Shown: piece after piece, positions 35,784 to 56,201 of the stretch
How the letters are laid out: the number at the start of each line of letters is the position of its first letter
Position numbering within the stretch: the stretch's first letter is position 1
Source: a virus
Virus record (IMG/VR): IMGVR_UViG_3300010148_005374
Coordinates: 1-61,467 of that record
Length of the DNA: 61,467 bases
Reading direction: 5' to 3' (one strand)
Translations under genes and position numbers: made by a program
Notes under the pieces: model-generated
Database searches by the model: none
What the model saw: only the letters and a program-made list of their open reading frames with translations
Told to the model about the DNA's origin: nothing

Positions 35784-36523
35784 ACTATACTTACACCTCG
35801 CTTTTGAACAACTTTTGTAGCACACTGGTTTGCAAAGTGTATTGCATCGTTTATATCGTAGTTTGTCAAATACTCAGCCACAAGTCCTGCTATAAATGTA
35901 TCCCCGGCACCTGAGGAATCTTTTATCTCCACTTTTTCTACTGGGTATATTTTTCCTCGATGTTCACACCCGTTAGACCCAAGCGTTATTATAAGCTGAT
36001 CATATAGGCTTTTCTTCAACAAGTGTTTAGTTCTAGCGTGTTCGTAATAATTTATCTTAATAAACGCCATATTATCACACCAGTCACCTAACAATTTTTT
36101 TGTGTCTAAAAAAACCTTATCGTGCATTTGAGATATTTTTGCCATTATGTCTTCAGATAGGTAGCCCTTACAATAGTCAGAAATGATAACGGCATCATAG
36201 TTTCCTATGTTTTGCTCAATTAAAGATATATCAAGTTCATTTATAACTTCATCATTTTCATCAATTCTCAAAAGCATTTGATTGGTTTTATTGTCAATGT
36301 ACCTACTCTTTTTAATCAACTGCCAGTTATTGTTTGTTATAATGTCACATTCAATACCAAGTGACTTTATGTTGTGCAAAACATTCATGGCCATACCGTC
36401 TGAAACTACTGTTGCTGTTCCATTAAAAACTGGTACCGGTGCATCAGGACACATACGGTCACAATTACCATAATTAAAAACGTCCTTGCAGCTTTCGCCT
36501 ATGACCAAAACCTTAGCAGCCAT
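35780..36523 (-). CDS. PfkB/ribokinase-type sugar kinase (RfaE N-terminal domain type)
   Basis: A 247-residue PfkB-family kinase, shorter than the usual about 310. The N-terminal part shows GESCKDVFNYGNCDRMCPDAP, close to heptose-7-phosphate kinase (HldE domain I: G...D.......R..PEAPVPV). The catalytic C-terminal signature is KDSSGAGDTFIAGLVAEYL, with the general base Asp in GAGD. Part of the central lid region is reduced. Together with the next two genes it forms a kinase, nucleotidyltransferase and phosphatase set for an activated heptose or similar sugar. The isomerase GmhA that would feed it is not seen in this window. Confidence 0.8.
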   Translation of the reverse strand: MAAKVLVIGESCKDVFNYGNCDRMCPDAPVPVFNGTATVVSDGMAMNVLHNIKSLGIECDIITNNNWQLIKKSRYIDNKTNQMLLRIDENDEVINELDISLIEQNIGNYDAVIISDYCKGYLSEDIMAKISQMHDKVFLDTKKLLGDWCDNMAFIKINYYEHARTKHLLKKSLYDQLIITLGSNGCEHRGKIYPVEKVEIKDSSGAGDTFIAGLVAEYLTNYDINDAIHFANQCATKVVQKRGVSIV

Positions 36524-37533
36524 TACCTAGAAAGAAACTCCCTGTCACCTTGTACTTTCTCTCTCCAATAGTTCAATAAGTCAGTCATTGTTTTCTCAAA
36601 TGGTATTGTTGGTTCCCATCCGGTGTGGTTTGTAAACTTAGCCGTGTCAGGCACCTGTAAATCTGCATCAATCGGACGAAGCCTCTCTGGGTCTGTCTCA
36701 ATCTTAATGTCTTTAACTGTTGACTGACTAACCAAATAGTTTAACATCTCTTCAACAGTACAACTGTAAGTGCCGCCAATATTGTAATATTCCCCGGCTG
36801 TCGGATTGTGAGTAACAAGTAGGTAATATGCCCTAACTGCATCCCGAACATCTGACCATGTTCTTAGTGATTGTAAGTTACCAACCTTTATTACAGGTGG
36901 CAATTTACCAGCTTCAATCATAGCAATTTGTTTTGCAAAAGTTGACTCTGCAAATACATCGCCCCTTCTTGGTCCTGTGTGTGTAAACATTCTGGTTGTC
37001 ATCACCATCATTCCGTAGGCCTCTGCATAATATCTACCGATTAAATCCGTCCCTACTTTTGATATAGCATAAGGAGAAGCTGGATGAAACGTCACTTCCT
37101 CATTAATCGGCAAGTATTCTTTTGGCACTCTTCCAAAAACTTCAGAGGACGCACAAACATGAATTACTGGTCGTAATCCCGAGTCTCTGATTGACTCTAA
37201 TAATTTTGCTGTTCCTAAAATGTTAGTCTCAAGAGTTTCAAGCGGTGCCACAAAACTTGTTTGTGGATAACTTTGTGCAGCCAGATGAAAAACATAATCA
37301 GGATTACTTTTTTTAATAGCTTTAGTTATGGACGGATAATCATTCAGATCACCATAAACTAAATGAACTCTATCTTTAGAATTAATTTTTGGAAACAAGT
37401 GTTGTATGTTCTCAAAATTATCGTTCCACCTACAGAACCCATAGATTTCCCAGTCCGTATTATCTAGAAGAAAGTCGGCCAAATGAGAGCCGACCATCCC
37501 TGTAATACCAGTAATGAAAACACTTTTAGACAT
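36523..37533 (-). CDS. GDP-mannose 4,6-dehydratase-like SDR (336 aa)
   Basis: Extended SDR that most likely converts GDP-mannose (or a GDP-heptose) to the 4-keto-6-deoxy sugar. Visible are TGITGMVGSHL (Rossmann TGxxGxxG), HLAAQSYPQTSF, the SSEVFG motif (catalytic Ser/Thr region), PYAISKVGTDL (Tyr-xxx-Lys: active-site Tyr and Lys), THTGPRRGDVFAES, and a SDVRDAVRAYYLL late motif. Those features, notably GPRRG and SDVRD, are GMD-specific. It is directly followed by the sugar kinase (TAATG junction) and preceded by three further SDRs, so it is likely the entry enzyme for the GDP-sugar block (ColD, Fcl-like). Confidence 0.88.
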   Translation of the reverse strand: MSKSVFITGITGMVGSHLADFLLDNTDWEIYGFCRWNDNFENIQHLFPKINSKDRVHLVYGDLNDYPSITKAIKKSNPDYVFHLAAQSYPQTSFVAPLETLETNILGTAKLLESIRDSGLRPVIHVCASSEVFGRVPKEYLPINEEVTFHPASPYAISKVGTDLIGRYYAEAYGMMVMTTRMFTHTGPRRGDVFAESTFAKQIAMIEAGKLPPVIKVGNLQSLRTWSDVRDAVRAYYLLVTHNPTAGEYYNIGGTYSCTVEEMLNYLVSQSTVKDIKIETDPERLRPIDADLQVPDTAKFTNHTGWEPTIPFEKTMTDLLNYWREKVQGDREFLSR

Positions 37534-39219: not shown

Positions 39220-40168
39220 CAATCATACTCCTGTTTTCTTCAAACCACTCAATCGTTTCTTGAATACCTTCTTCAAGGCTAATTGTTGTCTCGAACCCTA
39301 CTTCTTTTGCACGAGCAGAATCAAGGATTCTCTTCTTGTCCCCAGTTGGCTTGTCTGTCTGCCAGACTACATCAAGATCCTTAGGGCATTTGTCAACAAC
39401 GATATCCACAATCTGCTTGATTGCGATCCCTTCACCACTTCCAAGGTTAACAGGTTTTGTTACTTTATTGTCTACCATATGAAGCATACCCAAAGCTACA
39501 TCTCTGGAGTGGATAAAATCTCTAATCGGAGAGCCATCTCCCCAAACTTCCAGTTTATCGTTTTCAAACGCTTTGCGAATCAACGAAGGGATGACCATTG
39601 CATTCTCTGGGTCAAAGTTATCGTATGGTCCGTAAACGTTTGCGGGCCTTACAATTGAAACACAGTCCCAACCATATTGGATACTATATGCTTCTGCTTG
39701 CAACTCTCCAATTCTCTTAGCCCAGCCAGCAAACCTATCGTTGTTCGACGGAAAAGTTGACCAAACATCATCTTCTCTGAAGACTTCCGCTGGATGATAA
39801 ACGCCCACACTACTAGTATACAAATACCACTTTACTCCCGCACGCCTTGCTGCTTCCATCATATTGGTATTGAACTGGAGCATAGGAACCATAAAGTCTG
39901 CTGGCTGTTCCTTGCACATTTTTGGGGAGCCTTTAACGCCCACCAAGTTAAAAACATAATCCATACCTTCACAAACTTCCTGACAAGCAGAAAAGTCTGT
40001 AAGATCTGCAAGCTTGTACATCACACCGTCAGGCAGTCCCCTCGGAGGGTCCAAAGATACAACGTATACCTTAGCCCCTCTCTCCACTAACAGATCAACA
40101 AGTTGGCGACCTATCATTCCAGTCCCGCCAGTAACTAAAACACTTTGGTTTTTAAAATCAACAGTCAT
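39191..40168 (-). CDS. GDP-fucose synthase/ColC-like SDR (325 aa)
   Basis: Extended SDR. TGGTGMIGRQLVDLL is the cofactor loop, NLVGVKGSPKMC and YTSSVGVYHP match Fcl/WcaG-like proteins, and RPANVYGPYDNFDPENAMVI is a GDP-fucose-synthase hallmark. The expected YxxxK is replaced by ANALOGUE-type sequence: K151 lies in a FAGWAKRIGE stretch, and the residue four before it is A147. The nearest aromatic is F146. This pattern is also common in a subset of related proteins, so it may be a lineage trait. It probably acts after the GMD-like and ColD-like enzymes, as ColC does for colitose. It starts with ATG at 40168 after GAGG. Confidence 0.78.
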   Translation of the reverse strand: MTVDFKNQSVLVTGGTGMIGRQLVDLLVERGAKVYVVSLDPPRGLPDGVMYKLADLTDFSACQEVCEGMDYVFNLVGVKGSPKMCKEQPADFMVPMLQFNTNMMEAARRAGVKWYLYTSSVGVYHPAEVFREDDVWSTFPSNNDRFAGWAKRIGELQAEAYSIQYGWDCVSIVRPANVYGPYDNFDPENAMVIPSLIRKAFENDKLEVWGDGSPIRDFIHSRDVALGMLHMVDNKVTKPVNLGSGEGIAIKQIVDIVVDKCPKDLDVVWQTDKPTGDKKRILDSARAKEVGFETTISLEEGIQETIEWFEENRSMIDDRHNAFRK

Positions 40169-41333
40169 TTATAACCTCACACAATTTAATAATATTTTCT
40201 TCTTCAAGTTCAGTATGGTTACCAATATAAAGCCCAAAATCATGTATGTGATCTGAGATTTCTAAGTCACCTACAATCCTATGATCGTACTTTTCTAGAT
40301 AAGGTTGTCTGGCTTGGTTGCCACCACCAGCAGTTCCAATGCGATACTCTACTCTTTCTTGTTGCAAAACAGAGCAGACTCTCTCAAACAAATCTTTATC
40401 TTTTTCTCTAAGAATTAGTGGCAGTGCAAAACTACTGTTTCCTTCTTCAAGATAGTTTGTTTGAAATTTGCTAGTATCTAAGTTACTAATCCAAGTCTTA
40501 AAATTTTCTGCTCTAATCGTAGCTGCCCTATCTAGCCTTCCTAATTGTTCAAGGCCCAACACAGCATTAAATTCTGTATTCCTCAAATTATAGCCAGGAA
40601 CAGCAAAAAGAAATAAAGGATTTAAGTCTGGGTATTTCGCTGTATATGTGTTATACACTTCATCCCCAGCTTCTCTAATCATTCCATGTGACCTAAACAT
40701 CTTTGCTAGCTCATAGATATTCTTGTCATTTGTGCAAACAACCCCGCCTTCAACTGTTGTAATGTGGTGCCCAAAATAAAAAGAAAAGTTTGACATATCG
40801 CCAACAGTTCCAATTTTTTTCCCATCAAACGTAGCGCCGTGAGACTCGCAACAATCCTCAATCAAAATTAGGTTGTGTTTTTCTGCAAGTTCTACAAGCT
40901 TGTCAGTCAAGCCATTAAAACCTAAGGCGTGAACAAGAACAATGCCAACTGTTTTGTCTGTGATTGCGTTTTCAATATTTTCAGCAGTGATGGCCAGACT
41001 TTCTGGGTCAACGTCTACAAACACAGGGGTCATCCCCAAATTGACTACTGGGGCAATATCAGAAACCCACCCAATGGGTGGAACAATAACCTCGCCATCT
41101 CCTTTAATCTCTTTCATAATTGAAGTCATAATGTAGTTGGCAGACGCACCAGAGTTTACAAAGACTGTATACTTAACTCCAAGCCAATCAGACCAAGCTT
41201 GCTCAAACTTTTTTACATACTTTGATTGAGTAAATCTAACATTCGGCTCTTGAAGCCACTTAATTAGAGCAGCTTTATCCTCCTCTGTTATATTGTCATT
41301 TATCAAAGGCCAGGAAAAACTATTTTGTTCCAT
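40158..41333 (-). CDS. GDP-4-keto-6-deoxymannose 3-dehydratase-like, ColD family (391 aa)
   Basis: DegT/DnrJ/EryC1 fold enzyme that probably removes the C3 hydroxyl with pyridoxamine phosphate. The PLP lysine of this fold is replaced by His189 in SFYFGHHITTVEGG, as in ColD of the colitose pathway (SFYSHHIATMEGG), which uses that His as base. Other ColD-like features: NSGASANYIM, LVHALGFNG, LIEDCCESHGATF, VPGYNLRNTEFNAVLGLEQL, and GLYIGNH near the end. The ATG at 41333 has GGAG six bases upstream; upstream ATG/TTG options overlap the previous gene further. It is followed by Fcl/ColC-like SDRs and preceded by a split PDH-like ThDP enzyme. Confidence 0.88.
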   Translation of the reverse strand: MEQNSFSWPLINDNITEEDKAALIKWLQEPNVRFTQSKYVKKFEQAWSDWLGVKYTVFVNSGASANYIMTSIMKEIKGDGEVIVPPIGWVSDIAPVVNLGMTPVFVDVDPESLAITAENIENAITDKTVGIVLVHALGFNGLTDKLVELAEKHNLILIEDCCESHGATFDGKKIGTVGDMSNFSFYFGHHITTVEGGVVCTNDKNIYELAKMFRSHGMIREAGDEVYNTYTAKYPDLNPLFLFAVPGYNLRNTEFNAVLGLEQLGRLDRAATIRAENFKTWISNLDTSKFQTNYLEEGNSSFALPLILREKDKDLFERVCSVLQQERVEYRIGTAGGGNQARQPYLEKYDHRIVGDLEISDHIHDFGLYIGNHTELEEENIIKLCEVINDC

Positions 41334-41856
41334 AGAACTCTCCATGTTCAATTATTAATGTTGATTTTGAATCTGGTCTTTCATAAGCCTCCTTGAAGGC
41401 TGGGAATATATCCTCTGGCTCATAAAGATCAACAACATTTACCTCGGTTAACATTTTGCGAAAAGCCTCTGTATGATCCTGGGTATGTTGTGGTCCTGCA
41501 TCAATAGGGTTTTTTGTACCGACAGCAACCCTTATAATCACACGAGGAGTCATTTCTCCCTTTGACATATCTCTCATCTTATCAAGATGGTTTACTAGTT
41601 GATTACAGGCTAAGATAAAGAAATCAAATCGAGGATACATTGTGATTGGCACATATCCTTCTAGGGCCATCCCTGTTGAGATGCCCATCTGTGTTTCCTC
41701 AAACACAGGTAGTTCAATTCTTTTTTCATCGGGTACTTCAACTAGGGTGCTAGAAATTGCGTGTCCACTAACCTTACAAGCTTGCCCAAGAAATATTGTA
41801 TCTCTTTGTTTTGCAAGCCAGTTCATTGATCTGATAAGTTCGCTTTTATATTTCAT
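41320..41856 (-). CDS. ThDP-dependent enzyme, PDH E1-beta-like (pyrimidine-binding) subunit (178 aa)
   Basis: Pyrimidine-binding half of a thiamine diphosphate enzyme. The catalytic Glu is E54 in PVFEETQMGISTGMAL (canonical SEQ/E..GMA pattern), with LEGYVPITMYPRFDFFILA as the following strand and RVAVGTKNPIDAGPQHTQDH in the active-site loop. It has only 178 residues, so the E1-beta C-terminal domain is missing. The start at 41856 forms a TAATG junction with the E1-alpha-like gene. It is the partner of the next gene and neighbours ColD, so it may transfer a two-carbon unit to a 3,6-dideoxy-4-keto sugar; that is inference. Confidence 0.8.
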   Translation of the reverse strand: MKYKSELIRSMNWLAKQRDTIFLGQACKVSGHAISSTLVEVPDEKRIELPVFEETQMGISTGMALEGYVPITMYPRFDFFILACNQLVNHLDKMRDMSKGEMTPRVIIRVAVGTKNPIDAGPQHTQDHTEAFRKMLTEVNVVDLYEPEDIFPAFKEAYERPDSKSTLIIEHGEFYGTK

Positions 41857-42482
41857 TAAAAATTTACCCACTTTCCTGTTCCGTGGTGAGGATATTCCAT
41901 TTCATACTTGTAATAAATAACGCCATCAGGCACCTCTTGTTTTTCACCCCAGGCCATATCTGTTGGAGTGTGGACGCTCATATCATTATCCTCGACAACC
42001 CACTGAATAGGTAGGTCAAAGTTCTTACTATATTTGTAAGCCTCGTGGAACACCCCTGTCTCCATAGTCATATCGCCAACAAAGCACCAAACACGATTGT
42101 TTTTGCCTTTTTGTTTGATCCCCAAAGCGACGCCTAATGCGAGAGGTATAATACCACCAACAATCGATGATGCATAAAAGTTTGGTTTTAGATTATTAGT
42201 TCCCATACTTCTTCCCTCTACAATTGAATTAAACAATTTGTCAGGATCAACTCCGTGCAAAAGAGCGTGATAATGGTTTCTCCAAGGAACAAAAACCCAG
42301 TCATCGGGACTTATATACTGAAATATTTCTATTAGTTCATTTTCATTATTCTTAGCTAGATGAATTGGTCCTTTAATTTTTCCGGCTTCATATGTCTCTT
42401 TAACTTTTGTCTCAAAATCAATTAGATCCTGAGGAGTCAAAGACACCTCTCTAACTTTCTCTAAATGGTTAGGTATGTTCAT
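41856..42482 (-). CDS. ThDP-dependent enzyme, PDH E1-alpha-like (ThDP-binding) subunit (208 aa)
   Basis: Carries the ThDP-binding signature GDMTMETGVFHEA to EDN (residues 136-166; canonical GDG...NN). Also seen: WRNHYHALLHGVDPDKLF and SSIVGGIIPLALGVALGIKQ, both typical E1-alpha elements. It is shorter than PDH E1-alpha (about 320-360), lacking the C-terminal extension, as its partner also does. ATGA junctions on both sides couple it to RmlC-like and E1-beta-like genes. I infer an acyl- or ketol-transfer role in sugar branching; central metabolism is unlikely because no E2/E3 is present. Confidence 0.83.
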   Translation of the reverse strand: MNIPNHLEKVREVSLTPQDLIDFETKVKETYEAGKIKGPIHLAKNNENELIEIFQYISPDDWVFVPWRNHYHALLHGVDPDKLFNSIVEGRSMGTNNLKPNFYASSIVGGIIPLALGVALGIKQKGKNNRVWCFVGDMTMETGVFHEAYKYSKNFDLPIQWVVEDNDMSVHTPTDMAWGEKQEVPDGVIYYKYEMEYPHHGTGKWVNF

Positions 42483-42961
42483 TTATCCCTCGCCTGTAAA
42501 ATTGGATTGTCTATTGGCCAGTTTATACTAACACGAGTATCATTCCACTTTAAGGTAAATTGTTGATCAACATCTGAATACTGTCCTTCGTATGCTAGTT
42601 TGTAGCTAAAGACGGCAGAATCGCTCATAACACAAAAACCATTCCCAAAACCAGGAGGCAATAAAACCTGTCTTCTATCTTTGTCATCAAGCATCATACA
42701 ATCCCATTTCAAATAATTTTTTGATTCTTGTCGATTGTCAACTACAACAAAATACAATTCACCTTGCAGGCAACTTACTAACTTCCAAGTCTTATAGTCG
42801 CCATGAATTCCTCGTATAACATTTTTTCGAGAAGAAGAAAACTTATCGTGTACAAAGTTTAAATCTACTGGGAATGTATTCTTTTTATATGTTGTCCAGA
42901 TATCTCCACGATACTCCCTAAACATATCAGCTTCAAAAATTTTAACTTCTGAAAAAAGCAT
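42479..42961 (-). CDS. RmlC-like nucleotide-sugar 3,5-epimerase (160 aa)
   Basis: Cupin-fold epimerase. Features: FREYRGDIWTTY near the start, NVIRGIHGDYKTWKLVSCLQG (the conserved RG-H motif with catalytic His in the RGIHG strand), VLLPPGFGNGFCVMSD and the KLAYEGQYS Tyr motif. It is short for RmlC (about 180). Similar proteins act on GDP-linked 4-keto sugars (C3/C5 epimerisation of GDP-6-deoxy-4-keto-heptose in Campylobacter), which would fit the GMD-like gene here. It starts 2 bases after the upstream gene and overlaps the E1-alpha-like gene by ATGA. Confidence 0.83.
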   Translation of the reverse strand: MLFSEVKIFEADMFREYRGDIWTTYKKNTFPVDLNFVHDKFSSSRKNVIRGIHGDYKTWKLVSCLQGELYFVVVDNRQESKNYLKWDCMMLDDKDRRQVLLPPGFGNGFCVMSDSAVFSYKLAYEGQYSDVDQQFTLKWNDTRVSINWPIDNPILQARDK

Positions 42962-45457: not shown

Positions 45458-46214
45458 GATATATCCTTTCAAAAATATTCTTATGCTGTTTCATAGTCAT
45501 CAATTCAGAGCCCGTAACACCACGAGCAGTCTGCATAGTGTATAGGTTATTATAGTTTAGGGTTGACAAAGTGTTAAAAATCTCATCAAACGGAGTATCG
45601 CCGCTAAGTGGGATAACAGTTTTTGCGTCAAATGTCCTGTCCTTCAAATGAACGTTACTTATCCTGCTGTGTGTTTTTTGGATATAATCCTTATGGTCAA
45701 TCCTTTCAGAGGTTATGTTTCCTGTATCATAGGTAATCCAAAAATTATTACTTTCCTTAACTATATCTAAAACATTCTCTGCTGTAGTTTCGGCCTCAAA
45801 CGAGAAATTTAACCCTGGGTATTTGTCAGCATATTTTAGTATTTCTTGTTTAAATGCTTGTCTTCTTTGTGTGTCGTATATGGCACTCTTCTCTAGTAGT
45901 GGAACTGTAACCCACATCACTTTATTGTCAATAGCAGCTTTACAGATTGGGTCTAAGTTATCACGCAAAAATCCACTTTGAGTGAATCGATCATCAACAA
46001 GATTATCAGCACATAGTGAACTGATAGGAAATCTAGAACAATCCTTAGAGAAGATTGCATTATAACCAAAAGATCTAGTTGTTACAATCCACTCAATGTG
46101 GTTCAGTCCTAAGTTTTTTGCCCTATCAAACTCCTCTTCCCAACAAACTGGAAATTCTTGAATACCACCGTCTTCAGGTCTAAGTAATCTTCCTTGTATC
46201 ATTCCAAGTTTCAT
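45441..46214 (-). CDS. TIM-barrel sugar isomerase/epimerase-like (AP endonuclease 2 fold, 257 aa)
   Basis: Xylose isomerase-like TIM barrel. Seen: LGMIQGRLLRPEDG at strand 1, NLGLNHIEWIV, FSFEAETTAEN, ITYDTGNITSE and VHLKDRTFD (metal-ligand positions Glu, Asp, His of the family). It probably interconverts keto and aldo sugars or acids. The ATG at 46214 follows GGAGG and shares one base with the VOC gene's stop (TGATG). Genes of this type occur in sialic/legionaminic-like biosynthesis operons, but no specific substrate can be assigned. Confidence 0.78.
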   Translation of the reverse strand: MKLGMIQGRLLRPEDGGIQEFPVCWEEEFDRAKNLGLNHIEWIVTTRSFGYNAIFSKDCSRFPISSLCADNLVDDRFTQSGFLRDNLDPICKAAIDNKVMWVTVPLLEKSAIYDTQRRQAFKQEILKYADKYPGLNFSFEAETTAENVLDIVKESNNFWITYDTGNITSERIDHKDYIQKTHSRISNVHLKDRTFDAKTVIPLSGDTPFDEIFNTLSTLNYNNLYTMQTARGVTGSELMTMKQHKNIFERIYHATNS

Positions 46215-46636
46215 CAAATTTCCTCCACTAGTTCTATAAAAGTTCCATCGGGATCTTTACAAAAAACAACCCTTGCAAATCCATCTGGTGAATATTGTGG
46301 CTCACTAACAAACTCAACTCCTGTTAACACAAGGTCGTTATATGTTTTTTCTAAATTGTCAACAGTCATAGCAAAATGAGTGCAACCAATATTGGTTAAC
46401 CTGCCTGGTGTCGGCATCTCCTGGTGATTTTTAAAATGAAGAAGTTCCACCATCCCCCCATCCCTCAAGCTCATTTTAACTGTATTGACCTCGCCATTAT
46501 CTATAGAGAGTAAACTATCAATGTAAGGGCCAGACTCTATCATATCTTTTTTTATCTCAAACCCCAGACTCTTGTAGAAGGCTATGGACCTCTGCATATC
46601 TGTTACAACTATTCCAGTATGTCTAATGTTTAACAT
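46214..46636 (-). CDS. VOC (glyoxalase/dioxygenase) family protein (140 aa)
   Basis: Compact VOC protein: NIRHTGIVVTDMQRSIAFYK with the metal-binding His, then a beta-alpha repeat; CTHFAMTVDNLEKTY (second His), and KDPDGTFIELVEEI (final Glu), so three metal ligands are visible. It could act as isomerase, epimerase or lyase on a small acid or sugar. Placed between the class III aminotransferase and the TIM-barrel gene, it likely belongs to the same pathway. Confidence 0.83.
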   Translation of the reverse strand: MLNIRHTGIVVTDMQRSIAFYKSLGFEIKKDMIESGPYIDSLLSIDNGEVNTVKMSLRDGGMVELLHFKNHQEMPTPGRLTNIGCTHFAMTVDNLEKTYNDLVLTGVEFVSEPQYSPDGFARVVFCKDPDGTFIELVEEI

Positions 46637-46638
46637 GA

Positions 46639-47904
46639 CTAAATGTTCTTATTGATACATTGCTCTATTACATTAAAAGCTTCGTTAATAGCTTCAATGG
46701 GTAAAGTTAATGGTGGTCCTAATTTTATTGACTCTCTAAAAGTGCAGACTGGTAGGACTCCATTTTCAATACAATCAGTAACAATTTTGTTCGTTCTTTC
46801 TGTTGTATCAAAAACAATACCAGCCACCATACCCCTAGCGTTAACATTAGTAACACAATCATAGTCAAGAAGTTTATGACTTCTCTTTTCAAAAACCTGT
46901 ATTCTTTTATTAAGTTCCTTTTGAAACTTTTTATCTGTTAAGAATTTTATGTTTGCTAGACAAGCTGCACACCCCAAAGTATTTCCGGCGTGTGTGCCAC
47001 TTAGATTAGCGTTTAAATCGACATCAATAATTTCTTTTGTTCCAAGTATAGCTGACATAGGAATTGACGAAGATATGCCTTTTCCAAGACAAATAAGATC
47101 TGGCTCTATGTTATCACCATAGGTCATGTATCCATATAACTCACCCATCCTATAGAACCCTGATTGAACCTCATCAAAACAAATAAGTGCTCCATTGTCT
47201 CTTGCAAACTTATAAAGAGCTTGAATATATTGAGGTGGGTACATCCAGGCGGCCCAGCCTTGATACGTCTCTAGGAAAAATGCTGCGATCTGATCAGCAG
47301 GTGGTAGGATATTAGGATCAAACTCAACATCTGGATCTACAGGAAAGTCTATAAACACCACATCATCATCTACCATAGAAGACCATTCTGTTGCATCTTT
47401 AGACCCACATATAAAGGCCGACCCGAGAACTCTTCCGTGATAACTACCGTTAAAAGTTATAATATATTTTTTGTTATTCTTTTTTGCCCAAGATTTAACC
47501 AGTCGATAGGCTGCATCAGTAGCTTCAGAACCAGTATTAAGAAGTATCGATTTTTCAAAGTGATTAGGAGAAACCTCTAAAAGCTTGTTAACATATTCCT
47601 GTCTTATCTCGGTTATATACTGGTAGGCGAATATTAGATCAGAATCAACCTGATCTTTGATAGCTTTTTTAATTTGTGGATTAGCATGACCAGCATTAGT
47701 GACAAATATGCCAGAAGTCATATCAATCCATTTGTTGCCATCCTTATCAAAGACATTATAATCGTATGCACGATCCCAAACGACCGGCACTTGGTGTCCG
47801 TTTGCTTCGGTCTCTGTAGAGTATCGCTTATCGTGTAATTTGTTTTTCTTTAAACTGTAGCCATTGTTTATGGATCTATGATTTGTTTTTACTTTTTGCT
47901 TCAT
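46639..47904 (-). CDS. Class III PLP-dependent aminotransferase (421 aa)
   Basis: Full-length aminotransferase of the glutamate-semialdehyde/4-aminobutyrate type. Signature features: NTGSEATDAAYRLVKSW, FNGSYHGRVLG, FETYQG-like LETYQGWAAWMYPP, LICFDEVQSGFYRMGELYG (Asp244 contacting PLP) and CLGKGISSSIPMSAIL with the PLP-binding Lys275. It probably aminates a keto sugar or an aldehyde. It overlaps the NeuA-like gene by 29 bases and runs two bases before the VOC gene. In usual nonulosonic-acid pathways the aminotransferase is of DegT type, so a class III enzyme here is unusual. Confidence 0.88.
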   Translation of the reverse strand: MKQKVKTNHRSINNGYSLKKNKLHDKRYSTETEANGHQVPVVWDRAYDYNVFDKDGNKWIDMTSGIFVTNAGHANPQIKKAIKDQVDSDLIFAYQYITEIRQEYVNKLLEVSPNHFEKSILLNTGSEATDAAYRLVKSWAKKNNKKYIITFNGSYHGRVLGSAFICGSKDATEWSSMVDDDVVFIDFPVDPDVEFDPNILPPADQIAAFFLETYQGWAAWMYPPQYIQALYKFARDNGALICFDEVQSGFYRMGELYGYMTYGDNIEPDLICLGKGISSSIPMSAILGTKEIIDVDLNANLSGTHAGNTLGCAACLANIKFLTDKKFQKELNKRIQVFEKRSHKLLDYDCVTNVNARGMVAGIVFDTTERTNKIVTDCIENGVLPVCTFRESIKLGPPLTLPIEAINEAFNVIEQCINKNI

Positions 47905-48616
47905 TTAATTTATCCAACAACTTATGACCTCTTGTGGCCAGATGATAATCTATAAGTTCAAACTCATACTCAGTGTCAACCTCCAAAACAAAATCAGTGA
48001 TTATAGGCAAGACCGTTTCTCCAAACGCATCACCATCTTGAAGTGTAACTCTTTTTACAATGTCTAAATAACCATTTGGTTGGTAGGCTGCTGGAAACAC
48101 TTGTCTTGGTAAGTTTGTGTAATTTTTTTCTCCTTTGAAGTCTTCAAAAAACCCACAACAATAACCGTTCTTATCAAGTTGAAACATCTTATGAGGAGAT
48201 TCAGGCAACTTGTGCATTGACCTTACGCCAGTCGAAACAAGTATCTTAGTATGAAAATATCTTTTAATCTCTTCGTCTATGACTTCTGGATCTCTTAGAG
48301 GCGTAGTAGGCCTGACATAAGCAATATCAGACCCCCCTAGAGAATCAAAATAATGTTGTATTACTTCCTCATCCCTAGATCGGTCACCAGCTAATTCAGA
48401 TGGCCTTAAGAACGGAACCTCTGCCCCATACTGTAAGGCCACATTAGCGATTTCTTGATCGTCTGTAGATACAATAACTTTATTGATCATTTTCGATTGC
48501 TGGCAAGCAATGATCGAATAAGCTATTAGCGGGTGACCGTGAAGGAGTTTAATATTCTTCTTGGGTAAACCTTTACTGCCGCCCCTTGCAGGTATTAGAG
48601 CATCTATTTTACTCAC
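47876..48616 (-). CDS. neuA: CMP-nonulosonate cytidylyltransferase (NeuA/LegF-like, 246 aa)
   Basis: Activates a nonulosonic acid (sialic, legionaminic or similar) with CTP. Seen: IPARGGSKGLPKKNIKLLHG (nucleotide-binding loop with conserved Arg/Lys), VSTDDQEIANVALQYG, and ITDFVLEVDTEYEFELID (metal-binding Asp). Length matches NeuA (about 230). It starts with GTG at 48616, overlapping the NeuB-like stop as GTGA. The chemical identity of the substrate cannot be decided. Confidence 0.88.
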   Translation of the reverse strand: MSKIDALIPARGGSKGLPKKNIKLLHGHPLIAYSIIACQQSKMINKVIVSTDDQEIANVALQYGAEVPFLRPSELAGDRSRDEEVIQHYFDSLGGSDIAYVRPTTPLRDPEVIDEEIKRYFHTKILVSTGVRSMHKLPESPHKMFQLDKNGYCCGFFEDFKGEKNYTNLPRQVFPAAYQPNGYLDIVKRVTLQDGDAFGETVLPIITDFVLEVDTEYEFELIDYHLATRGHKLLDKLNEAKSKNKS

Positions 48617-49449
48617 AGAGTATCTACCTTTCGTAGCTTCTCAGCGATAGATACTTCAGTATCCATGACCCTCTTTTCAGGCGAGCCCATACAGGCAATG
48701 ATATCTCTAACATAATCCATCATTCTTTTAAGTCCAACAACCTCCAAGGACGCAGACTGATCTGATCCATACATCGCCCGATCAAGAGTAATGTGTCTTT
48801 CCAAAGATGAGGCACCAACAGCAACAGCAGCACAACTAATAATGATACCTGTTTCGTGGCCACTATATCCAACATTACAGCCGTACCTATTTTGCAGCGT
48901 GTGCATCACACGAAGATTTGCATCTTCAAGTTGCATTGGGTAGGTACTGTTACAATGCATAAGCTCAAAAGAGCAGTCATGGCTTTTAAAGATTTCAACT
49001 ACTTTATCAATTTGCTCAAGTGTGCTCATCCCAGTAGAAATAAAAGTATGCTTCTTTTCGGATGCAATTTCTTCTAGAAGTTCTCTGTGTGTAAGCATAG
49101 CCGACGCAACTTTATTGTATTTGCAATTAAACCGACGCATGAAAATTTGACTATCAACATCCCAGGCAGATGCGAACCATTCAATATTTTTTTCTTTACA
49201 ATATGCATCAATCTGCTCGTAATCAGATTCGGTAAACTCTAGCCCAAGTTTTTGTTCTCTATTTGTTGTCCCCCAGGGACTCTCTCTTGGTTTATCAAGC
49301 TCTTCTTTCGTGTAAACCTTATCAATAGTTCTCTTTTGAAATTTTACCGCATTGCATCCTGCTGCTGCGGCCTCATCAATAAGTTGTTTGGCAATATCCA
49401 GACTGCCGTTATGGTTAATACCAATTTCTGCAATTACAAAAACACTCAT
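48613..49449 (-). CDS. neuB: Nonulosonic acid synthase, NeuB-like, lacking SAF domain (278 aa)
   Basis: Condenses phosphoenolpyruvate with an N-acyl-mannosamine-type sugar. Features: VIAEIGINHNGSLDIAKQLIDEA, AVKFQKRTIDKVY, STGMSTLEQID, MHCNSTYPM and metal-binding histidines in GYSGHETGI and ERHITLD. Usual NeuB has about 350 residues with a C-terminal SAF (antifreeze-like) domain; this protein stops at 278, so it has only the TIM barrel. Phage and some marine members also do so. It lies upstream of NeuA (GTGA junction), as in many NulO operons. Confidence 0.88.
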   Translation of the reverse strand: MSVFVIAEIGINHNGSLDIAKQLIDEAAAAGCNAVKFQKRTIDKVYTKEELDKPRESPWGTTNREQKLGLEFTESDYEQIDAYCKEKNIEWFASAWDVDSQIFMRRFNCKYNKVASAMLTHRELLEEIASEKKHTFISTGMSTLEQIDKVVEIFKSHDCSFELMHCNSTYPMQLEDANLRVMHTLQNRYGCNVGYSGHETGIIISCAAVAVGASSLERHITLDRAMYGSDQSASLEVVGLKRMMDYVRDIIACMGSPEKRVMDTEVSIAEKLRKVDTL

Positions 49450-50402: not shown

Positions 50403-51353
50403 TCACCAAATAAAATTTTTCTTGTAATAGTCTACAATGGATTGTATCTCATTGTCAAATATTTTTTTAGGCTTCCATCCAAGTTTTCTAATTTTTTCGT
50501 CATTTAGACAATACCTTACATCTTGTCCTTTCCTCACATAAGAATAGTCAATATGTTCTTTCCAGTCAACGTCAGTTCCATAAAATGCCTTTATAATCTT
50601 TCTAACAGTTTCAGAATTTTGCTGCTCAAAGTCTCCCGAAACGTTGTATATCTCATTTACGACTTCATTGTCAACCAAGGTTAGAACGGCCTCAGCAGTA
50701 TCATCTGCATGTAACCAATTTCTGATTGGAGTGCCGTCATTATGAAGAGAAATCTTTCTGCCTCTAAGTAAGTTTTTCACACTAAGAGGAATTAATTTTT
50801 CAGGGTATTGTCTAATTCCATAATTGTTAGTAGGTCTAACTATCAAATACTGCAAATCATAAGTTCTAGACCAAGCTAACACAAGCATATCGGCTGCGGC
50901 TTTCGCTGCTGAGTACGGATTACTTGGATGCAATAAATCATCTTCAGTGTGGTGTCCCTCTAAGATATCACCATAAACCTCATCTGTACTAATGTGAAGA
51001 AATATAGGCCTTTTACCACAGTTCTTTGGCTTGAACCTAACGAGATCTAATAGGTTTTTGGTGCCCACAATATTTGTGTTTATGAACTCATCACTATTTA
51101 TTATGCTATTCCCAACATGAGATTCGGCGGCAAAATTGACCACATAATCGCAATCACACAAAGAGTTAAGATCTTTTATGTCAGCTTTTAAAAACTTAAA
51201 GTTATCATATGTGTTCAACTGCTGTAAAAGAGACTCGTTAGCCGCATATGTAACTTTGTCAATCCCATACACCATCCATCCTCTCTCTAAACATTTAAGG
51301 ACAAAATATGAAGGAATAAAACCCAAACACCCTGTTACACATAATATTTTCAT
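50403..51353 (-). CDS. dTDP/CDP-glucose 4,6-dehydratase-like (RmlB family, 316 aa)
   Basis: Extended SDR that produces an NDP-4-keto-6-deoxyhexose. The pattern is RmlB-like: DKVTYAANESLL (nucleotide-binding loop), FAAESHVGNSI, HISTDEVYGD (catalytic Thr/Asp/Glu), NPYSAAKAAADMLVLAW (YxxxK), RPTNNYG. The cofactor loop reads TGCLGFIPS, so the third Gly of TGxxGxxG is Pro. The ATG at 51353 is chosen as it follows the RfbH-like stop by one base; an upstream ATG would overlap that gene. Substrate is probably CDP- or dTDP-glucose for the adjacent 3-dehydrase. Confidence 0.85.
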   Translation of the reverse strand: MKILCVTGCLGFIPSYFVLKCLERGWMVYGIDKVTYAANESLLQQLNTYDNFKFLKADIKDLNSLCDCDYVVNFAAESHVGNSIINSDEFINTNIVGTKNLLDLVRFKPKNCGKRPIFLHISTDEVYGDILEGHHTEDDLLHPSNPYSAAKAAADMLVLAWSRTYDLQYLIVRPTNNYGIRQYPEKLIPLSVKNLLRGRKISLHNDGTPIRNWLHADDTAEAVLTLVDNEVVNEIYNVSGDFEQQNSETVRKIIKAFYGTDVDWKEHIDYSYVRKGQDVRYCLNDEKIRKLGWKPKKIFDNEIQSIVDYYKKNFIW

Positions 51354-51354
51354 G

Positions 51355-52704
51355 TTACCTTTTGCTGAAGAATTCATCCACGACCCCTTCAATATAATTT
51401 ATCTTCTCATCTGTTACACCAATAAAAGTTCCCAAGAAAAAAGATCCAACTGTTGCCTTATAAGCATTTGGAAAACGTTCTTTAATATTATCATATCTCT
51501 TAGCGTAATCCACATAAGCAGGATGATATAAACAATTACCAGCAAAATAAGATCTTGTCTGTATCTTATTGGATTCAAGATGCTTAACAAAATCTTCTCT
51601 AGTAAAACCACTGTTGTCTTTGACAGTCAATAAAAAACCAAACCAATTAGGGTCAGACTTATCAGTTTTTTCTGGAAGCATAAAATACTCTTCATACTTC
51701 GAGAATATTTTCTTTAGTGATTTAAAGTTTCTTCTTCTAGCATCATCCATATCTTGCAATTTATCTAACTGCTTTAATCCTATGGCGGCTTGCATCTCTA
51801 ATGGCTTAAGATTGAAACCTATCTCATCAAAAACATACCTATGATCATAGTTTATTCTCTCTTTACCATCTTTAAGCCAAGGCCTAAACCTGTTCCCGCA
51901 AGCCGTGCCTGCCGTAACATCTCCTGGTTTTTGCTCGTTACAATAACAAGCCCTGCCCCAATCTCTGAAACTAGCTAAGACTCTCCTTAGCCGAGGATCG
52001 TCAGTCGCTACAAACCCTCCTTCACCCATAGTCATATGATGTGCGGGATAAAAAGAACAAGTTGACATCAATCCAAATGATCCTAATTTCTTTCCATCAT
52101 AAAAGGAACCCATAGCATCACAAGAATCCTCTAAAAAAATTAAATTGTATTTATCAACTAAATGCATTAACCTGTCCATATCAGGAGGGTTTCCTAAAAC
52201 GTGAGCAAATATAATACCCCTGATACTACTATCTTTCTTCAAAGCATCTTCAACCTGGTCTAGGTTGAGATTCAAAGAAGGCAAGTCAACGTCTACAAAT
52301 ACTGGCTCGAATCCTGTTTGTATAATCGGGTTTAGAGTTGTAGGGAAACAAACCACTGGGGTTATAAACTTACTACCCTTAGGTAAATGAAACTTTTTCA
52401 TAAAGCTTTTTTTGCTAGTCAAAGCTTGGGTCATAATAAGGTTTGCTGAACTTCCAGAATTTGTCAGCATCCCAAAATTCTTGCCTAAAAACATTGGGAA
52501 AGTTTCTTCAAACTCTCTCGCTTTTTTACCAAAAACAAGCCAACCATCAAGAATAGCTGATACAGCTTCTCTAAATTCTACGGAACTAAAATTAGGCCCT
52601 GAGTAATTTACCCAATCTCCTGGAGTCCACGATTTACGAAGCAAGTTCTCTTCTGCGTACTCTTCTACAAGAGACAATATTTTTTCTAGCTTTTTGTCCT
52701 TCAT
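51355..52704 (-). CDS. rfbH: NDP-4-keto-6-deoxyglucose 3-dehydrase, RfbH/E1-like (449 aa)
   Basis: PMP- and iron-sulfur-dependent enzyme of 3,6-dideoxysugar synthesis (ascarylose, tyvelose, yersiniose pathways). The PLP lysine is replaced by His222 in CSFYPAHHMTMGEGG. The [2Fe-2S] ligands of E1 (C-X57-C-X1-C-X7-C) can be traced: C195, C253, C255 and C269, so the spacing is X57, X1 and X13; a six-residue insertion lies in the last gap. Length and motifs (NSGSSANLIM, RDWGRACYC, GFNLKPLEMQAAIGLKQL, SYFAGNCLYHPAY) fit RfbH. Its usual reductase partner (E3) is not in this window. Confidence 0.9.
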   Translation of the reverse strand: MKDKKLEKILSLVEEYAEENLLRKSWTPGDWVNYSGPNFSSVEFREAVSAILDGWLVFGKKAREFEETFPMFLGKNFGMLTNSGSSANLIMTQALTSKKSFMKKFHLPKGSKFITPVVCFPTTLNPIIQTGFEPVFVDVDLPSLNLNLDQVEDALKKDSSIRGIIFAHVLGNPPDMDRLMHLVDKYNLIFLEDSCDAMGSFYDGKKLGSFGLMSTCSFYPAHHMTMGEGGFVATDDPRLRRVLASFRDWGRACYCNEQKPGDVTAGTACGNRFRPWLKDGKERINYDHRYVFDEIGFNLKPLEMQAAIGLKQLDKLQDMDDARRRNFKSLKKIFSKYEEYFMLPEKTDKSDPNWFGFLLTVKDNSGFTREDFVKHLESNKIQTRSYFAGNCLYHPAYVDYAKRYDNIKERFPNAYKATVGSFFLGTFIGVTDEKINYIEGVVDEFFSKR

Positions 52705-53540
52705 TTACAAACCTCATTTAAACCCTGGATAAATCCAACAAAAATATCCCTTGGAAACGTTTTATTAAAAGTTTTTGAACTACCTGTATAGTTTTTTACG
52801 TCTTCATTTTTTAGGATGAGATTAGGATTATGAGACCCTAATCTATTCTCTACTATATCAGATATTTGCTTTAAGTTAAATTTTTCTGGGTAGGTAAGAT
52901 TGACATCTCTGGGTAGATCTTGTTTTTTAAAATTGGAAATATAAAAGCCTATAGCTCGACAAACGTCTTGGTCATAAAAAAAGTCCATCTCTTTTTTAGC
53001 ATCAATGGTAACTTCTGTATTTTTTTCAATACCAGATTTTAATACCTTGATTAATCTATTTTCCTCTTCGTTTTTACCAAAACAGCCAAACAGCCTAAAG
53101 TTGTAAAGATGTTCATTTAGTTCTACTATCTTTCTTGAGATTACATTCTTAGAACGGCCATAATAATCTGATGGCAGTTGGTCATAGATTCTTGATTCTT
53201 CGAAGTTTGATATATCTCTTGCCCTATCAAACTCAGCACCCGAACCAAAATTTATCAAAATTGAATACTGGTCTTTGTTATTAAGAAGATTGTTAAACAT
53301 CTTGAGGTTTGTAACATAATCTTCTGGGTTATCTTTGTGATTTCTTCTGCCACCTTTAACCGCAGTGTGTAAAACTATATCGACACTATGGTCTTGTAAA
53401 AAATTCTTGACCTTGTTTGGGTTCGAGACATCTAGTTCTTGCCTAGTACAAGCTAGGGTATTATAGCCCTTAGAAGAAAAATATCTGTTTAATGATTTCC
53501 CCAGGAAACCATTAGCACCTGTAATGAGAATCGTATTCAT
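52701..53540 (-). CDS. NAD-dependent sugar epimerase/reductase, RmlD-like (279 aa)
   Basis: Extended SDR of RmlD/GalE-type. TGANGFLGKSLNRYF is the cofactor loop, INFGSGAEFD the middle strand, DYYGRSKNVISR the YxxxK active site. It is rather short and has a distinct C-terminal part. It overlaps both neighbours by ATGA and lies between the RfbH-like and transketolase-like genes. A 4-reductase finishing the 3,6-dideoxy (possibly branched) sugar is the inferred role. Confidence 0.8.
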   Translation of the reverse strand: MNTILITGANGFLGKSLNRYFSSKGYNTLACTRQELDVSNPNKVKNFLQDHSVDIVLHTAVKGGRRNHKDNPEDYVTNLKMFNNLLNNKDQYSILINFGSGAEFDRARDISNFEESRIYDQLPSDYYGRSKNVISRKIVELNEHLYNFRLFGCFGKNEEENRLIKVLKSGIEKNTEVTIDAKKEMDFFYDQDVCRAIGFYISNFKKQDLPRDVNLTYPEKFNLKQISDIVENRLGSHNPNLILKNEDVKNYTGSSKTFNKTFPRDIFVGFIQGLNEVCK

Positions 53541-54013
53541 CTGCTAAGGTTCATATAGTTTGGTCTACCATCAAAAAGGTAGTCATCAATATTTTGTTCA
53601 AGAGATTCTTCGTCAGATGGCCAGATAGATTTTATGTTAGAAAAATTAGACATTACTTTACTATCATCCTCTGCCCAATGAGAGAAGCCCAAGTAACCAT
53701 AGTCTTTTTCTCTGCCACCTCCAAGTAATTTAACAGGTATCTTTTCATGGTCAATGTAGTTCCTGATGAACTCATACGGACGATATAAAACAAAAGGAGT
53801 TATTGAGTACACAACGGGTATGATACCAGAGGTAGCCATTCCGCAAGCAGCGCCGACCATTAGTTGTTCAGAAGAACCAAAATTATGAAACCTATTTGGG
53901 AAGTCTATTTTTATTCTGTCCCAAAGTCCATAACCAAGATCACCTGTCAACAAGTGTATCTCGTTGTGTTCTGCCATTTTTGTATGCAATAAGTTACTAA
54001 ACTTTTTTCTCAT
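53537..54013 (-). CDS. Transketolase-like, pyrimidine-binding subunit (158 aa)
   Basis: Second half of a split ThDP enzyme. Catalytic Glu49 is in FGSSEQLMVGAACGMAT, the transketolase-family signature, followed by PVVYSITPFVLYRPYEFIRN and KLLGGGREKDYGYLGFSHWAED (His/Asp loop). With 158 residues it lacks the third, C-terminal transketolase domain. The ATG at 54013 overlaps the N-terminal subunit's end by 17 bases. With its partner it may transfer a ketol unit to a 4-keto-3,6-dideoxy sugar; inference from context. Confidence 0.82.
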   Translation of the reverse strand: MRKKFSNLLHTKMAEHNEIHLLTGDLGYGLWDRIKIDFPNRFHNFGSSEQLMVGAACGMATSGIIPVVYSITPFVLYRPYEFIRNYIDHEKIPVKLLGGGREKDYGYLGFSHWAEDDSKVMSNFSNIKSIWPSDEESLEQNIDDYLFDGRPNYMNLSR

Positions 54014-54641
54014 CTAATTCCCTAAGTGCCAGCTTATAATCATCCTGATTCATTATGTGGTAGTGGGCATTCAATCCTTTTAAAAAGGAGAACTCATTAA
54101 CCTTGCTGTATCTTATATTGATACTTGGTAAGAAACACTGAAGACGTTCTACAAGGTATCCTGTATCAACAGAATCGTAGGCCGCAAAACCATTAACACA
54201 TACATAGACTTGTATGTTTTTTACATTGTTCTCGTAGATAAACTTTAGACTTTCCCATATAGATCCTTCTGCACATTCGCCGTCGCTTATTAAACAATGG
54301 ACTGTTATGTTTTTATTTGCAAGAGCTTTACCCACTGCAAATGTCAACCCCATACCTAAGCTACCTGTCGAACAGTACACCCCATCACTTTCTTTTCTAT
54401 GTGGGTGACCCCCGTGCCTATCAAATAAATCTGCTGCGTTTTTTCCTTCGTATTTTTCTAAAGCAACATACTGCGCCAAAGAAGCATGCCCACAGGACAA
54501 TATAAAAATATCATCTTTATTTTTATTGCGATATATTTCATCAACAATAGGGAGACAAGAAAAATAACTACCCAAATGAGATAACTTATTTTTGTAGGCT
54601 ATCTCAACAATCCTTTTCTTCAGTTGAATCAAAGGCCCCAC
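53997..54641 (-). CDS. Transketolase-like, ThDP-binding subunit (214 aa)
   Basis: First half of the split enzyme. The ThDP motif is SDGECAEGSIWESLKFIYEN to VNG (residues 119-151; canonical GDGE...N). Also STGSLGMGLTFAVGKAL and LSCGHASLAQYVAL, both transketolase-typical. The start is GTG at 54641: GGAGG lies five bases upstream. No ATG occurs early in this frame. The usual transketolase is about 620-680 residues in one chain, so with its partner (158) this pair is compact. Confidence 0.83.
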   Translation of the reverse strand: MGPLIQLKKRIVEIAYKNKLSHLGSYFSCLPIVDEIYRNKNKDDIFILSCGHASLAQYVALEKYEGKNAADLFDRHGGHPHRKESDGVYCSTGSLGMGLTFAVGKALANKNITVHCLISDGECAEGSIWESLKFIYENNVKNIQVYVCVNGFAAYDSVDTGYLVERLQCFLPSINIRYSKVNEFSFLKGLNAHYHIMNQDDYKLALRELDEKKV

Positions 54642-55363
54642 TTAGACCTCCACTTATTCTGTAGCATAAAATCATAGTTTACGGGTTGTCTTTGCATACC
54701 CCAAGTAGCTTGCTTCTCGTGCCATCGATAATAATAACCAAGCCACTCATTATTAGGATGAATGTAGATATCATTATCTAATAGGTTGAAATATAGTTCA
54801 TAATCAGAGGCACCTAAATAATTTTCAGAGTCCCACTTGACCAACCCTTGTTTGTATAATTTTCTTGAATAAACAACAGATGGTGTTGCAACAACACATC
54901 TTTCTAGCATCTTGTTTTTTAGATCATCTATGTCATCATAACTATTTGTTAAATCACCACCCTGTTCAATACCTTTTTTATTGACACATTTTAAAGCGCT
55001 CTGAAAGCAATCTATATCCTTATCGGACTCTTCGATATATTTAACAATATTAGAAACATAGTTTGGAGCTAAGTAATCATCAGCCCCAAGTATAGTGACA
55101 TAATCACCTGTAAATATTTCTAATGCCTTTTCTACTGGTTCTTGCCACGAAAAAGGATATATATTTGCAACGGTGTCTAAGTGAAAATTTTGATGTTCTT
55201 CATAAATGCTTTCAACTATCTCTAGACTATCATCACCGCTATCATTATCAATAACTATAACTTCGCAGTTCTCATAGTCTTGATTCAAAGCCGATGTGAC
55301 ACACTGTTCAATATAATCCTCTGCGTTATAACAAGGTATGATTATTGTAAACTTAGGTTTCAT
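54629..55363 (-). CDS. Family 2 glycosyltransferase (244 aa)
   Basis: GT-A fold transferase: FTIIIPCYNAEDYIEQCV at the N-terminus, VIDNDSGDDSLEIV and TILGADDYLAPN (DxD-like metal motif in GADD), then ASDYELYFNLL (general base region). ATG at 55363 is preferred because AGGAGG lies seven bases upstream; the longer frame begins with TTG. It is soluble, without membrane helices. Donor and acceptor are unknown. Confidence 0.88.
   Translation of the reverse strand: MKPKFTIIIPCYNAEDYIEQCVTSALNQDYENCEVIVIDNDSGDDSLEIVESIYEEHQNFHLDTVANIYPFSWQEPVEKALEIFTGDYVTILGADDYLAPNYVSNIVKYIEESDKDIDCFQSALKCVNKKGIEQGGDLTNSYDDIDDLKNKMLERCVVATPSVVYSRKLYKQGLVKWDSENYLGASDYELYFNLLDNDIYIHPNNEWLGYYYRWHEKQATWGMQRQPVNYDFMLQNKWRSKWGL
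54647..54651 (-). promoter_or_regulatory. Ribosome-binding site deciding a GTG start
   Basis: GGAGG on the minus strand is five bases before GTG 54641. It lies inside the last codons of the GT2 gene, linking its translation with the transketolase-like N subunit. Confidence 0.75.
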
Positions 55364-56201
55364 ATAAGGCCTCCTCAACTCTTAGACGAATCTGGTGCTT
55401 CTTAGTCGCCATATATTCTATCAGTTCTTCGCCTTTTAGTTTAAACCACTCTTCGCTTGATGCGCCTATTTTTTTATTTGTTATGACTTTCATTCCAGCC
55501 ATACGACATTCAACAGCAACTCGACATAAAGTTTCCAATGTTTGTGGTAAGAATATAAAAGTGTTATTTTCAGAGATCTTCTCTAGGAACTCTTTGTATG
55601 GCATAAAACCGACCAAATCAAAAGGAATATTTTTTCTGGTACAATAGGCCACTGTTAAAGGTGTGTTTTTAATTGGATTTGAAGAATCCCATATAGAATA
55701 TCGATCTGCCTTATCTTTCTTTGACATCTTGCGCAACAATTCTAGAGTTGTGTCATCCCACAAGTTACCACCAACTGATACTATATTATCAAGTTTTAAA
55801 TTTTTCTGTACAACACTCCTGTGAAGTTCTGATTGGCAAAAAACTGTTTTTGCTGCTGCATAAAATTCTTTGTTTATAACTTGATCTTCTGGGGCCTCAT
55901 AATTATCATAAACAGATGGGTCTCTAGAAGTTAGATATTTGTGATCGTGTTCGTATATAACATAATCACAATTCTTGATTAGGACTTTCTTAGCTTGCTC
56001 ATTGATTCCTAGAAAGTTACCAATGATAAATTTGTGTTCTTTATTTTCAAGCAAGAAATCTTCTGTCACTTGTGTAGAAAAGACTTGCTCTACTTCTTTA
56101 CCCTCTTTCCTTAAAAGGTTCATCAACTCCTGGTTACTAAGTTCTCCACCACCCAGATGCTGCTCAGCAAACACATCTGCGATAAAATTAATCTTACTCA
56201 T
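55353..56201 (-). CDS. Glycosyltransferase, GT4-like (282 aa)
   Basis: A short GT-B-like protein. N-terminal FIADVFAEQHLGGGELSNQE is the start typical of GT4 (GGGE/S acceptor loop); the C-terminal region FLPQTLETLCRVAVECRMAG is the E-x7-E-like donor site. At 282 residues it is shorter than standard GT4 (about 370), so one lobe may be trimmed. It overlaps the GT2 gene and the following GT by 8-11 bases. Confidence 0.75.
   Translation of the reverse strand: MSKINFIADVFAEQHLGGGELSNQELMNLLRKEGKEVEQVFSTQVTEDFLLENKEHKFIIGNFLGINEQAKKVLIKNCDYVIYEHDHKYLTSRDPSVYDNYEAPEDQVINKEFYAAAKTVFCQSELHRSVVQKNLKLDNIVSVGGNLWDDTTLELLRKMSKKDKADRYSIWDSSNPIKNTPLTVAYCTRKNIPFDLVGFMPYKEFLEKISENNTFIFLPQTLETLCRVAVECRMAGMKVITNKKIGASSEEWFKLKGEELIEYMATKKHQIRLRVEEALYET

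Follow-up and report, generated by a model that had tools for sequence, protein, structure and literature searches.

A putative branched-deoxysugar cassette with a minimal two-chain transketolase in a viral genome record

The gene block and its enzymes

The IMG/VR virus record IMGVR_UViG_3300010148_005374 was analyzed over its full 61,467 bases, hereafter called the window. This linear record holds baseplate wedge genes, an endolysin and PhoH. T4-type Gp23 capsid was found in 10 of 28 records (the window and 27 related ones), so the window very probably derives from the genome of a T4-type tailed phage. Its minus strand carries overlapping or abutting genes in the order family 2 glycosyltransferase (GT2), pyrophosphate-binding (PP) half and Pyr half of a split transketolase (TK), RmlD-like short-chain dehydrogenase (SDR), RfbH, and RmlB-like nucleoside diphosphate (NDP)-glucose 4,6-dehydratase. 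The initial annotation had placed RfbH, the RmlD-like gene and two TK-like half genes adjoining and overlapping at 51355-54641, and all four were recovered there; the RmlB-like gene (50403..51392), absent from its gene list, overlaps RfbH and also belongs to the block. Overlaps of 4 base pairs (bp) join RfbH to RmlD and RmlD to the Pyr gene, and one of 17 bp joins the Pyr gene to the PP gene, called TKN. The GT2 gene (54629..55378; PF00535) in turn overlaps TKN and holds the same position in the related loci L003 and L004 and in L018, a sister of the window; it is a possible user of the cassette's product.

The two TK genes encode the halves of a thiamine diphosphate (ThDP) enzyme on adjoining chains, with no C-terminal TKC domain. 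TKN (53997..54641; 214 amino acids; PF00456 above cut-off) is the N-terminal chain that binds the ThDP pyrophosphate and metal, and its best match in the PDB was 6YAK, the split-chain TK of Carboxydothermus, by sequence (2.5e-15) and by a Foldseek search with the predicted structure (2.2e-8). The Pyr chain (53537..54013; 158 amino acids; PF02779) matched 6YAJ best (5.1e-23 by sequence, 1.9e-8 by Foldseek), and its matches after transketolase were to DXS. Predicted local distance difference test (pLDDT) scores were 88 for TKN and 87 for Pyr. The matches listed by the scans include 80 of about 280 viral relatives, together with cellular relatives. Residues H22, H52, D120, E122 and N150 of TKN were invariant in 85 unique viral sequences, and E49 and H112 of Pyr in 85 of 85 viral and 30 of 30 cellular relatives. 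The window's Pyr chain compares with about 312 amino acids for the ChTK-C chain, in which residues 164-312 form TKC, and a length of 140-179 amino acids was seen in 134 of the 138 adjoining TKN-Pyr pairs found elsewhere. That the halves are pieces of a broken gene was ruled out, since the two-chain form without TKC is kept in more than 130 loci and the residues named are invariant. Cellular relatives of this short form occur in Candidate Phyla Radiation (CPR) bacteria, Omnitrophota and Actinomarina; the CPR and Omnitrophota sequences branch outside the viral group.

RfbH (51355..52704; 449 amino acids) is a pyridoxamine phosphate (PMP)-dependent [2Fe-2S] 3-dehydrase of the E1 type, scoring 463.3 bits against the NCBIfam cut-off of 423 (NF011936). 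Its best PDB match was 3BCX, the E1 cytidine diphosphate (CDP)-4-keto-6-deoxyglucose 3-dehydrase (3e-103). H222 replaces the lysine that binds pyridoxal phosphate and was kept in 127 of 127 unique relatives, as was each of the four cysteines for the [2Fe-2S] cluster (C195, C253, C255 and C269), although the gap preceding the last cysteine is longer than in 3BCX. Given this histidine and the four cluster cysteines, an electron donor is expected to be needed. The RmlB-like protein scored 308 bits with TIGR01181 and 80 bits with the CDP-glucose type TIGR02622, matched 2HUN in the PDB, and has the catalytic TDE found in 137 of 137 relatives. The CDP-sugar substrate named in the initial annotation lacks support: the dehydratase of the block is of the thymidine diphosphate (dTDP)-glucose type, and a search of the window found no sugar-1-phosphate nucleotidyltransferase. 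In the RmlD-like SDR (52701..53540; PF01370/PF04321), Y127 and K131 of the YxxxK motif are kept in 139 of 140 relatives. This gene was present in 50 of 56 RfbH loci with a ThDP gene versus none of seven without (p=3e-6), and its product is proposed to be a ketoreductase acting on the new branch. A shorter RfbH-like family (380 amino acids; 32-34% identical to the RfbH of the window), with the histidine in the motif SFYASHVITAGG, also adjoins TK pairs and was observed in L014, L015, L073, L079-L082, L087, L089, L092, L094, L096 and L103.

Pairing of RfbH with ThDP enzymes and exchange in one slot

The initial annotation had proposed that 3-deoxygenation is coupled to carbon-carbon bond formation by a ThDP enzyme, and gene neighborhoods in viral contigs bear this out. 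Four anchor sets were compared, with flanks of at most 10 kb, redundancy removed at 95% of the anchor protein, and loci shorter than 14 kb set aside. A ThDP gene accompanied RfbH in 51 of 56 loci, far above the NeuB-anchored control, in which 9 of 55 loci had a ThDP gene, 9 of 55 a His-type dehydratase and seven both (odds ratio 77, p=5.9e-6); NeuB is one kind of control only, and some dependence remains between contigs that share a sample. Around RfbH the ThDP gene was YerE-like in 27 loci, of the alpha/beta E1-pair type in 12, of the TK type in 11, and E1 plus YerE-like in one. The RfbH loci were gathered with an alignment-based scan (a single-sequence scan gave two loci only), and most sequences in the query alignment came from TK loci, a bias toward TK neighbors; YerE-like neighbors dominate nonetheless. 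With TK as the anchor, a His-type (PMP) dehydratase was present in 41 of 53 loci (31 of them true RfbH) and a Lys-type aminotransferase in none, and an RmlD-like gene was near in 53 of 53. The pairing of RfbH with ThDP genes is not a matter of chance.

The three ThDP types alternate in a single slot. Two gene orders, one in which the ThDP gene precedes RmlD, RfbH and RmlB, and one in which RfbH and RmlB precede the ThDP gene and RmlD, are each seen with all three types: TK, the E1 pair and the YerE-like gene, the last with or without PanB. On a quick RfbH tree with three long branches, 27-28 changes of ThDP type are needed; counting only branches with good support, 15 are unavoidable for TK and 14 for the YerE-like type, a minimum of about 14 switches overall. 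The nearest comparison is with L018, about 97% identical to the window over NeuB and the E1 pair at 40-42 kb, and 85% over RfbH. At the position of the window's TK genes it has a 595-amino-acid YerE-like protein followed by PanB; the best PDB match of this protein was 8RPH, the YerE-like enzyme JanthE (437 bits versus 262 for acetolactate synthase). Another sister, L017, lacks a ThDP gene at that position. The presence of a YerE-like gene or an E1 pair in the same slot of related phages marks the branch as the variable part, and exchange of the branch-adding enzyme is probably how related viruses diversify the sugars on their surface. Window and L018 differ also in RmlD, which is 38% identical between flanks of 75% and 85% identity. 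This comparison suggested that the reductase is inherited with the ThDP type, an idea that was rejected as a general rule because ThDP type changes almost as often on the RmlD tree (26 times) as on the RfbH tree (27-28). Gene families, active-site residues, coupling and slot swapping are supported by comparison of sequences.

Two observations concern the contents of the slot. All 16 loci with PanB, a ketopantoate hydroxymethyltransferase (L018, 8240-9169; also L083, L147, L175, L187, L215 and others), have a YerE-like gene (p=1.5e-16), mostly directly adjoining. Because ErwE prefers 4-hydroxy-2-oxo acids (PMC12247030), the branch may come from a hydroxymethylated 2-oxo acid made by PanB. In L118 and L120 (5129-11315) E1 and TK pairs stand side by side, in the order RfbH, RmlB, E1-alpha, E1-beta, then TKN and Pyr, then RmlD.

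Cellular genomes show a related arrangement. Among 34 Pseudomonadota RfbH loci, 17 had a YerE-like gene and three a split TK. In two loci, L409 (2708-8704) and L431 (4886-10113), the TK genes come immediately after RfbH within clusters that also hold an SDR-like, a cytidylyltransferase-like and an RfbG-like gene, and L409 additionally has an E3-like protein; the last three were named by eye from their N-termini. These candidate cellular branched-sugar loci indicate that phages are not alone in pairing RfbH with a split TK. Their Pyr chains, of about 300 amino acids, are long enough for TKC, whereas the phage version is distinguished by its minimal two-domain TK and by a dTDP-type dehydratase. 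A single cell of Candidatus Actinomarina (L026, 8571-11080) has RfbH (702 bits) followed directly by a two-domain TK pair.

Proposed pathway and alternative readings

The block is a real, conserved and functionally coherent cassette, a variant of the yersiniose-type pathway with a putative TK reaction at its center. We consider it likely that it is a branched-deoxysugar cassette in which the YerE of the yersiniose pathway has been replaced by a minimal transketolase. On the best reading, the order RmlB, RfbH, TK and RmlD would yield an NDP-3,6-dideoxy-4-C-(two-carbon-branched) hexose. Host NDP-glucose would be converted by the RmlB-like enzyme to NDP-4-keto-6-deoxyglucose, from which RfbH would take off the 3-hydroxyl to give an NDP-3,6-dideoxy-4-ketohexose. 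With a ketose phosphate (or hydroxypyruvate) as donor, the two-chain TK would then attach a two-carbon ketol unit to the C4 ketone, giving a tertiary alcohol that bears a hydroxyacetyl branch. Reduction of the branch ketone by the RmlD-like SDR would produce a 1,2-dihydroxyethyl branch, and the adjoining GT2 would pass the resulting octose to a glycan. In this scheme we infer the donor, the nucleotide, the stereochemistry, the order of the last steps, and the place and destination of the glycan.

The scheme is drawn by analogy with characterized enzymes. CDP-3,6-dideoxy-4-keto-glucose is the product of E1/E3. The same compound is the substrate of YerE (PMC12247030), and later reduction of a C4 acetyl branch by a ketoreductase was shown for Pau7 (PMC4753412). 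The three ThDP types of the viral RfbH loci are those reviewed as superfamilies linked to keto-sugar branching, namely YerE-like enzymes, alpha-KADH2 and split-gene TK (PMC12247030).

Several points weigh against the proposed pathway. No transketolase has been shown to take a keto sugar as acceptor (PMC12247030). The RmlD-like sequence does not track the ThDP type, as described above. A phage-encoded E3 reductase and nucleotidyltransferase were looked for and were essentially absent: the E3-type reductase domains PF00970 and PF00111 were each found in 0 of the 28 phage records, window included (records may be fragments), and sugar-1-phosphate nucleotidyltransferase (PF00483) in only three of them. 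The pathway must consequently lean on the host, which presumably provides the electron donor for RfbH. Finally, 12 of the 53 TK loci have no His-type 3-dehydratase within the flank, and in CPR bacteria and Omnitrophota the two-domain TKs adjoin a GMD-like SDR while RfbH is missing; members of this TK family can therefore do without 3-deoxygenation.

These last cases also feed the best surviving alternative, in which the TK pair branches some other NDP-keto sugar of the same island and lies next to RfbH because both contribute to one glycan, though by separate pathways. A subgroup that includes L011-L013 and L116 fits it as well, with TKN, Pyr and RmlD next to PfkB and cupin genes and neither RmlB nor RfbH, and the cellular two-domain TKs adjoin GMD-like SDRs only. 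RfbH-anchored loci, however, nearly always carry one ThDP gene, usually of a single type, and YerE-like enzymes, the known users of the RfbH/E3 product, fill the very same slot; we regard this alternative as improbable. Considerably less probable still is a metabolic TK, or a DXS-like auxiliary metabolic gene, feeding pentose or isoprenoid metabolism in infection. The top sequence and fold matches to transketolase, followed by DXS for the Pyr chain, speak for such a role. Against it, the pair has glycosyltransferases and SDRs for nucleotide sugars as neighbors, gives way to YerE-like or E1 types in other loci, and is without the TKC domain seen in known split-gene TKs. The least credible proposition is that a mosaic glycan island carries these genes along, decayed or inactive, and that hitch-hiking brought them together. 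Gene content around the cassette does vary among related contigs, and the window is itself a linear fragment, but even highly diverged relatives retain the catalytic residues without change, and gene order is maintained in many contigs.

A wider version of the branched-sugar cassette reading holds that it is an exchangeable unit of tailed phages, in which three ThDP superfamilies rotate through one slot after a shared 3,6-dideoxy-4-ketohexose and change only the branch of a surface octose, one of them being a minimal TK with a nucleotide-bound ketone as acceptor; for this we see evenly balanced odds. If it is true, use of such an acceptor would be without demonstrated precedent among transketolases. 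Three unrelated enzymes that form carbon-carbon bonds in one slot amount to a natural replacement experiment, and suggest that phages diversify a glycan via the branch. Because the viral TK relatives sit in a short cassette whose acceptor can be inferred, the question of sugar branching by TK becomes directly testable, and the small two-chain ThDP enzymes are candidates for tertiary-alcohol synthesis.

The 40-42 kb module, neighboring genes and known systems

The initial annotation regarded the block as repeating the logic of a module at 40-42 kb, here called Module A. The analogy holds in its genes, all on the minus strand: an E1-alpha-like PP chain of the alpha-KADH2 type (41856..42482; PF00676; TIGR03182, 91 bits), an E1-beta-like Pyr chain without TKC (41320..41871; PF02779; NF006667, 49 bits), a ColD-like PMP 3-dehydratase of the DegT family with His in place of Lys (40158..41351; SFYFGH motif at residue 190), for which ColD/WbdK 2GMS was the best PDB match (4.7e-55), and an RmlC-like 3,5-epimerase adjoining E1-alpha (42479..42961; PF00908, 9e-39). 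A GMD/LegB-like NDP-sugar 4,6-dehydratase on the same strand is also assigned to it (36523..37533; PF16363, 1e-77; TIGR01472 173 bits, below cut-off). The idea that 3-deoxygenation is the module's purpose fares less well. The order RmlC, E1-alpha, E1-beta and His-type DegT recurs in viral loci, but many E1 loci have RmlC without DegT; His-type DegT was present in 20 of 55 E1-type viral loci and Lys-type in none, so 3-deoxygenation does not appear to be general for this type. Two branched dideoxysugars, one from each module, remain a prediction. E1 alpha and beta are fused into one protein in the cultured cyanophages S-SM2 of Synechococcus (L019, 15001-16209) and P-TIM68 (L020, 12049-13194), where the fused gene adjoins a zinc alcohol dehydrogenase and no DegT gene is annotated nearby.

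Other genes of the window include a nonulosonate-like block at 46214-49449 (NeuB, CMP-sugar synthetase, class III aminotransferase and a glyoxalase-like gene) and an HldE-like split pair at 35385-36523, in which a nucleotidyltransferase (phrog_7878) overlaps a PfkB kinase. Several very large open reading frames (1122, 1196, 3596 and 2195 amino acids) lie between 1744 and 30857. Three large frames checked between 1744 and 9715 had no PHROG family, and the 1196-amino-acid protein (5114-8704) had no match in the annotated phage collection.

An open-access literature search found no papers on phage branched-sugar ThDP enzymes, and the closest parallels are in cellular systems. The sugar-branching alpha-KADH2 pairs AviB1/AviB2, Pau11/Pau12 and KbDH belong to the same class as the E1 pair of Module A; the phage version differs in lacking TKC, in adjoining RmlC and a ColD-like dehydratase, and in its fusion in the two cyanophages. 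In the yersiniose A pathway of Yersinia pseudotuberculosis, 3-dehydration by E1/E3 is followed by the ThDP carboligase YerE and then a ketoreductase. The phage cassette shares with it an RfbH-type 3-dehydrase, a ThDP enzyme for the C4 branch and a reductase alongside, and in L018 the slot is filled by a YerE/JanthE-like enzyme. The window instead has the two-chain TK and a dTDP-type dehydratase, with no acetolactate-synthase-like ThDP enzyme at the locus, and no E3, cytidylyltransferase or CDP-glucose 4,6-dehydratase was found. The split-gene TK of Carboxydothermus hydrogenoformans is the closest solved relative in sequence and fold and likewise carries PP and Pyr on separate chains, but the phage Pyr chain is half as long for want of TKC and sits in a nucleotide-sugar cassette. 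A further parallel is offered by the split-gene TKs of Streptomyces miharamycin and amipurimycin biosynthesis, which are also encoded by two genes and for which transfer of a hydroxyacetyl unit onto a keto sugar is proposed. Sugar branching by TKs is as yet a proposal without proof, for which a 2025 review gives 13 candidate sequences, all streptomycete and uncharacterized in vitro (PMC12247030); the pair described here is, by comparison, phage-borne and tied to RfbH.

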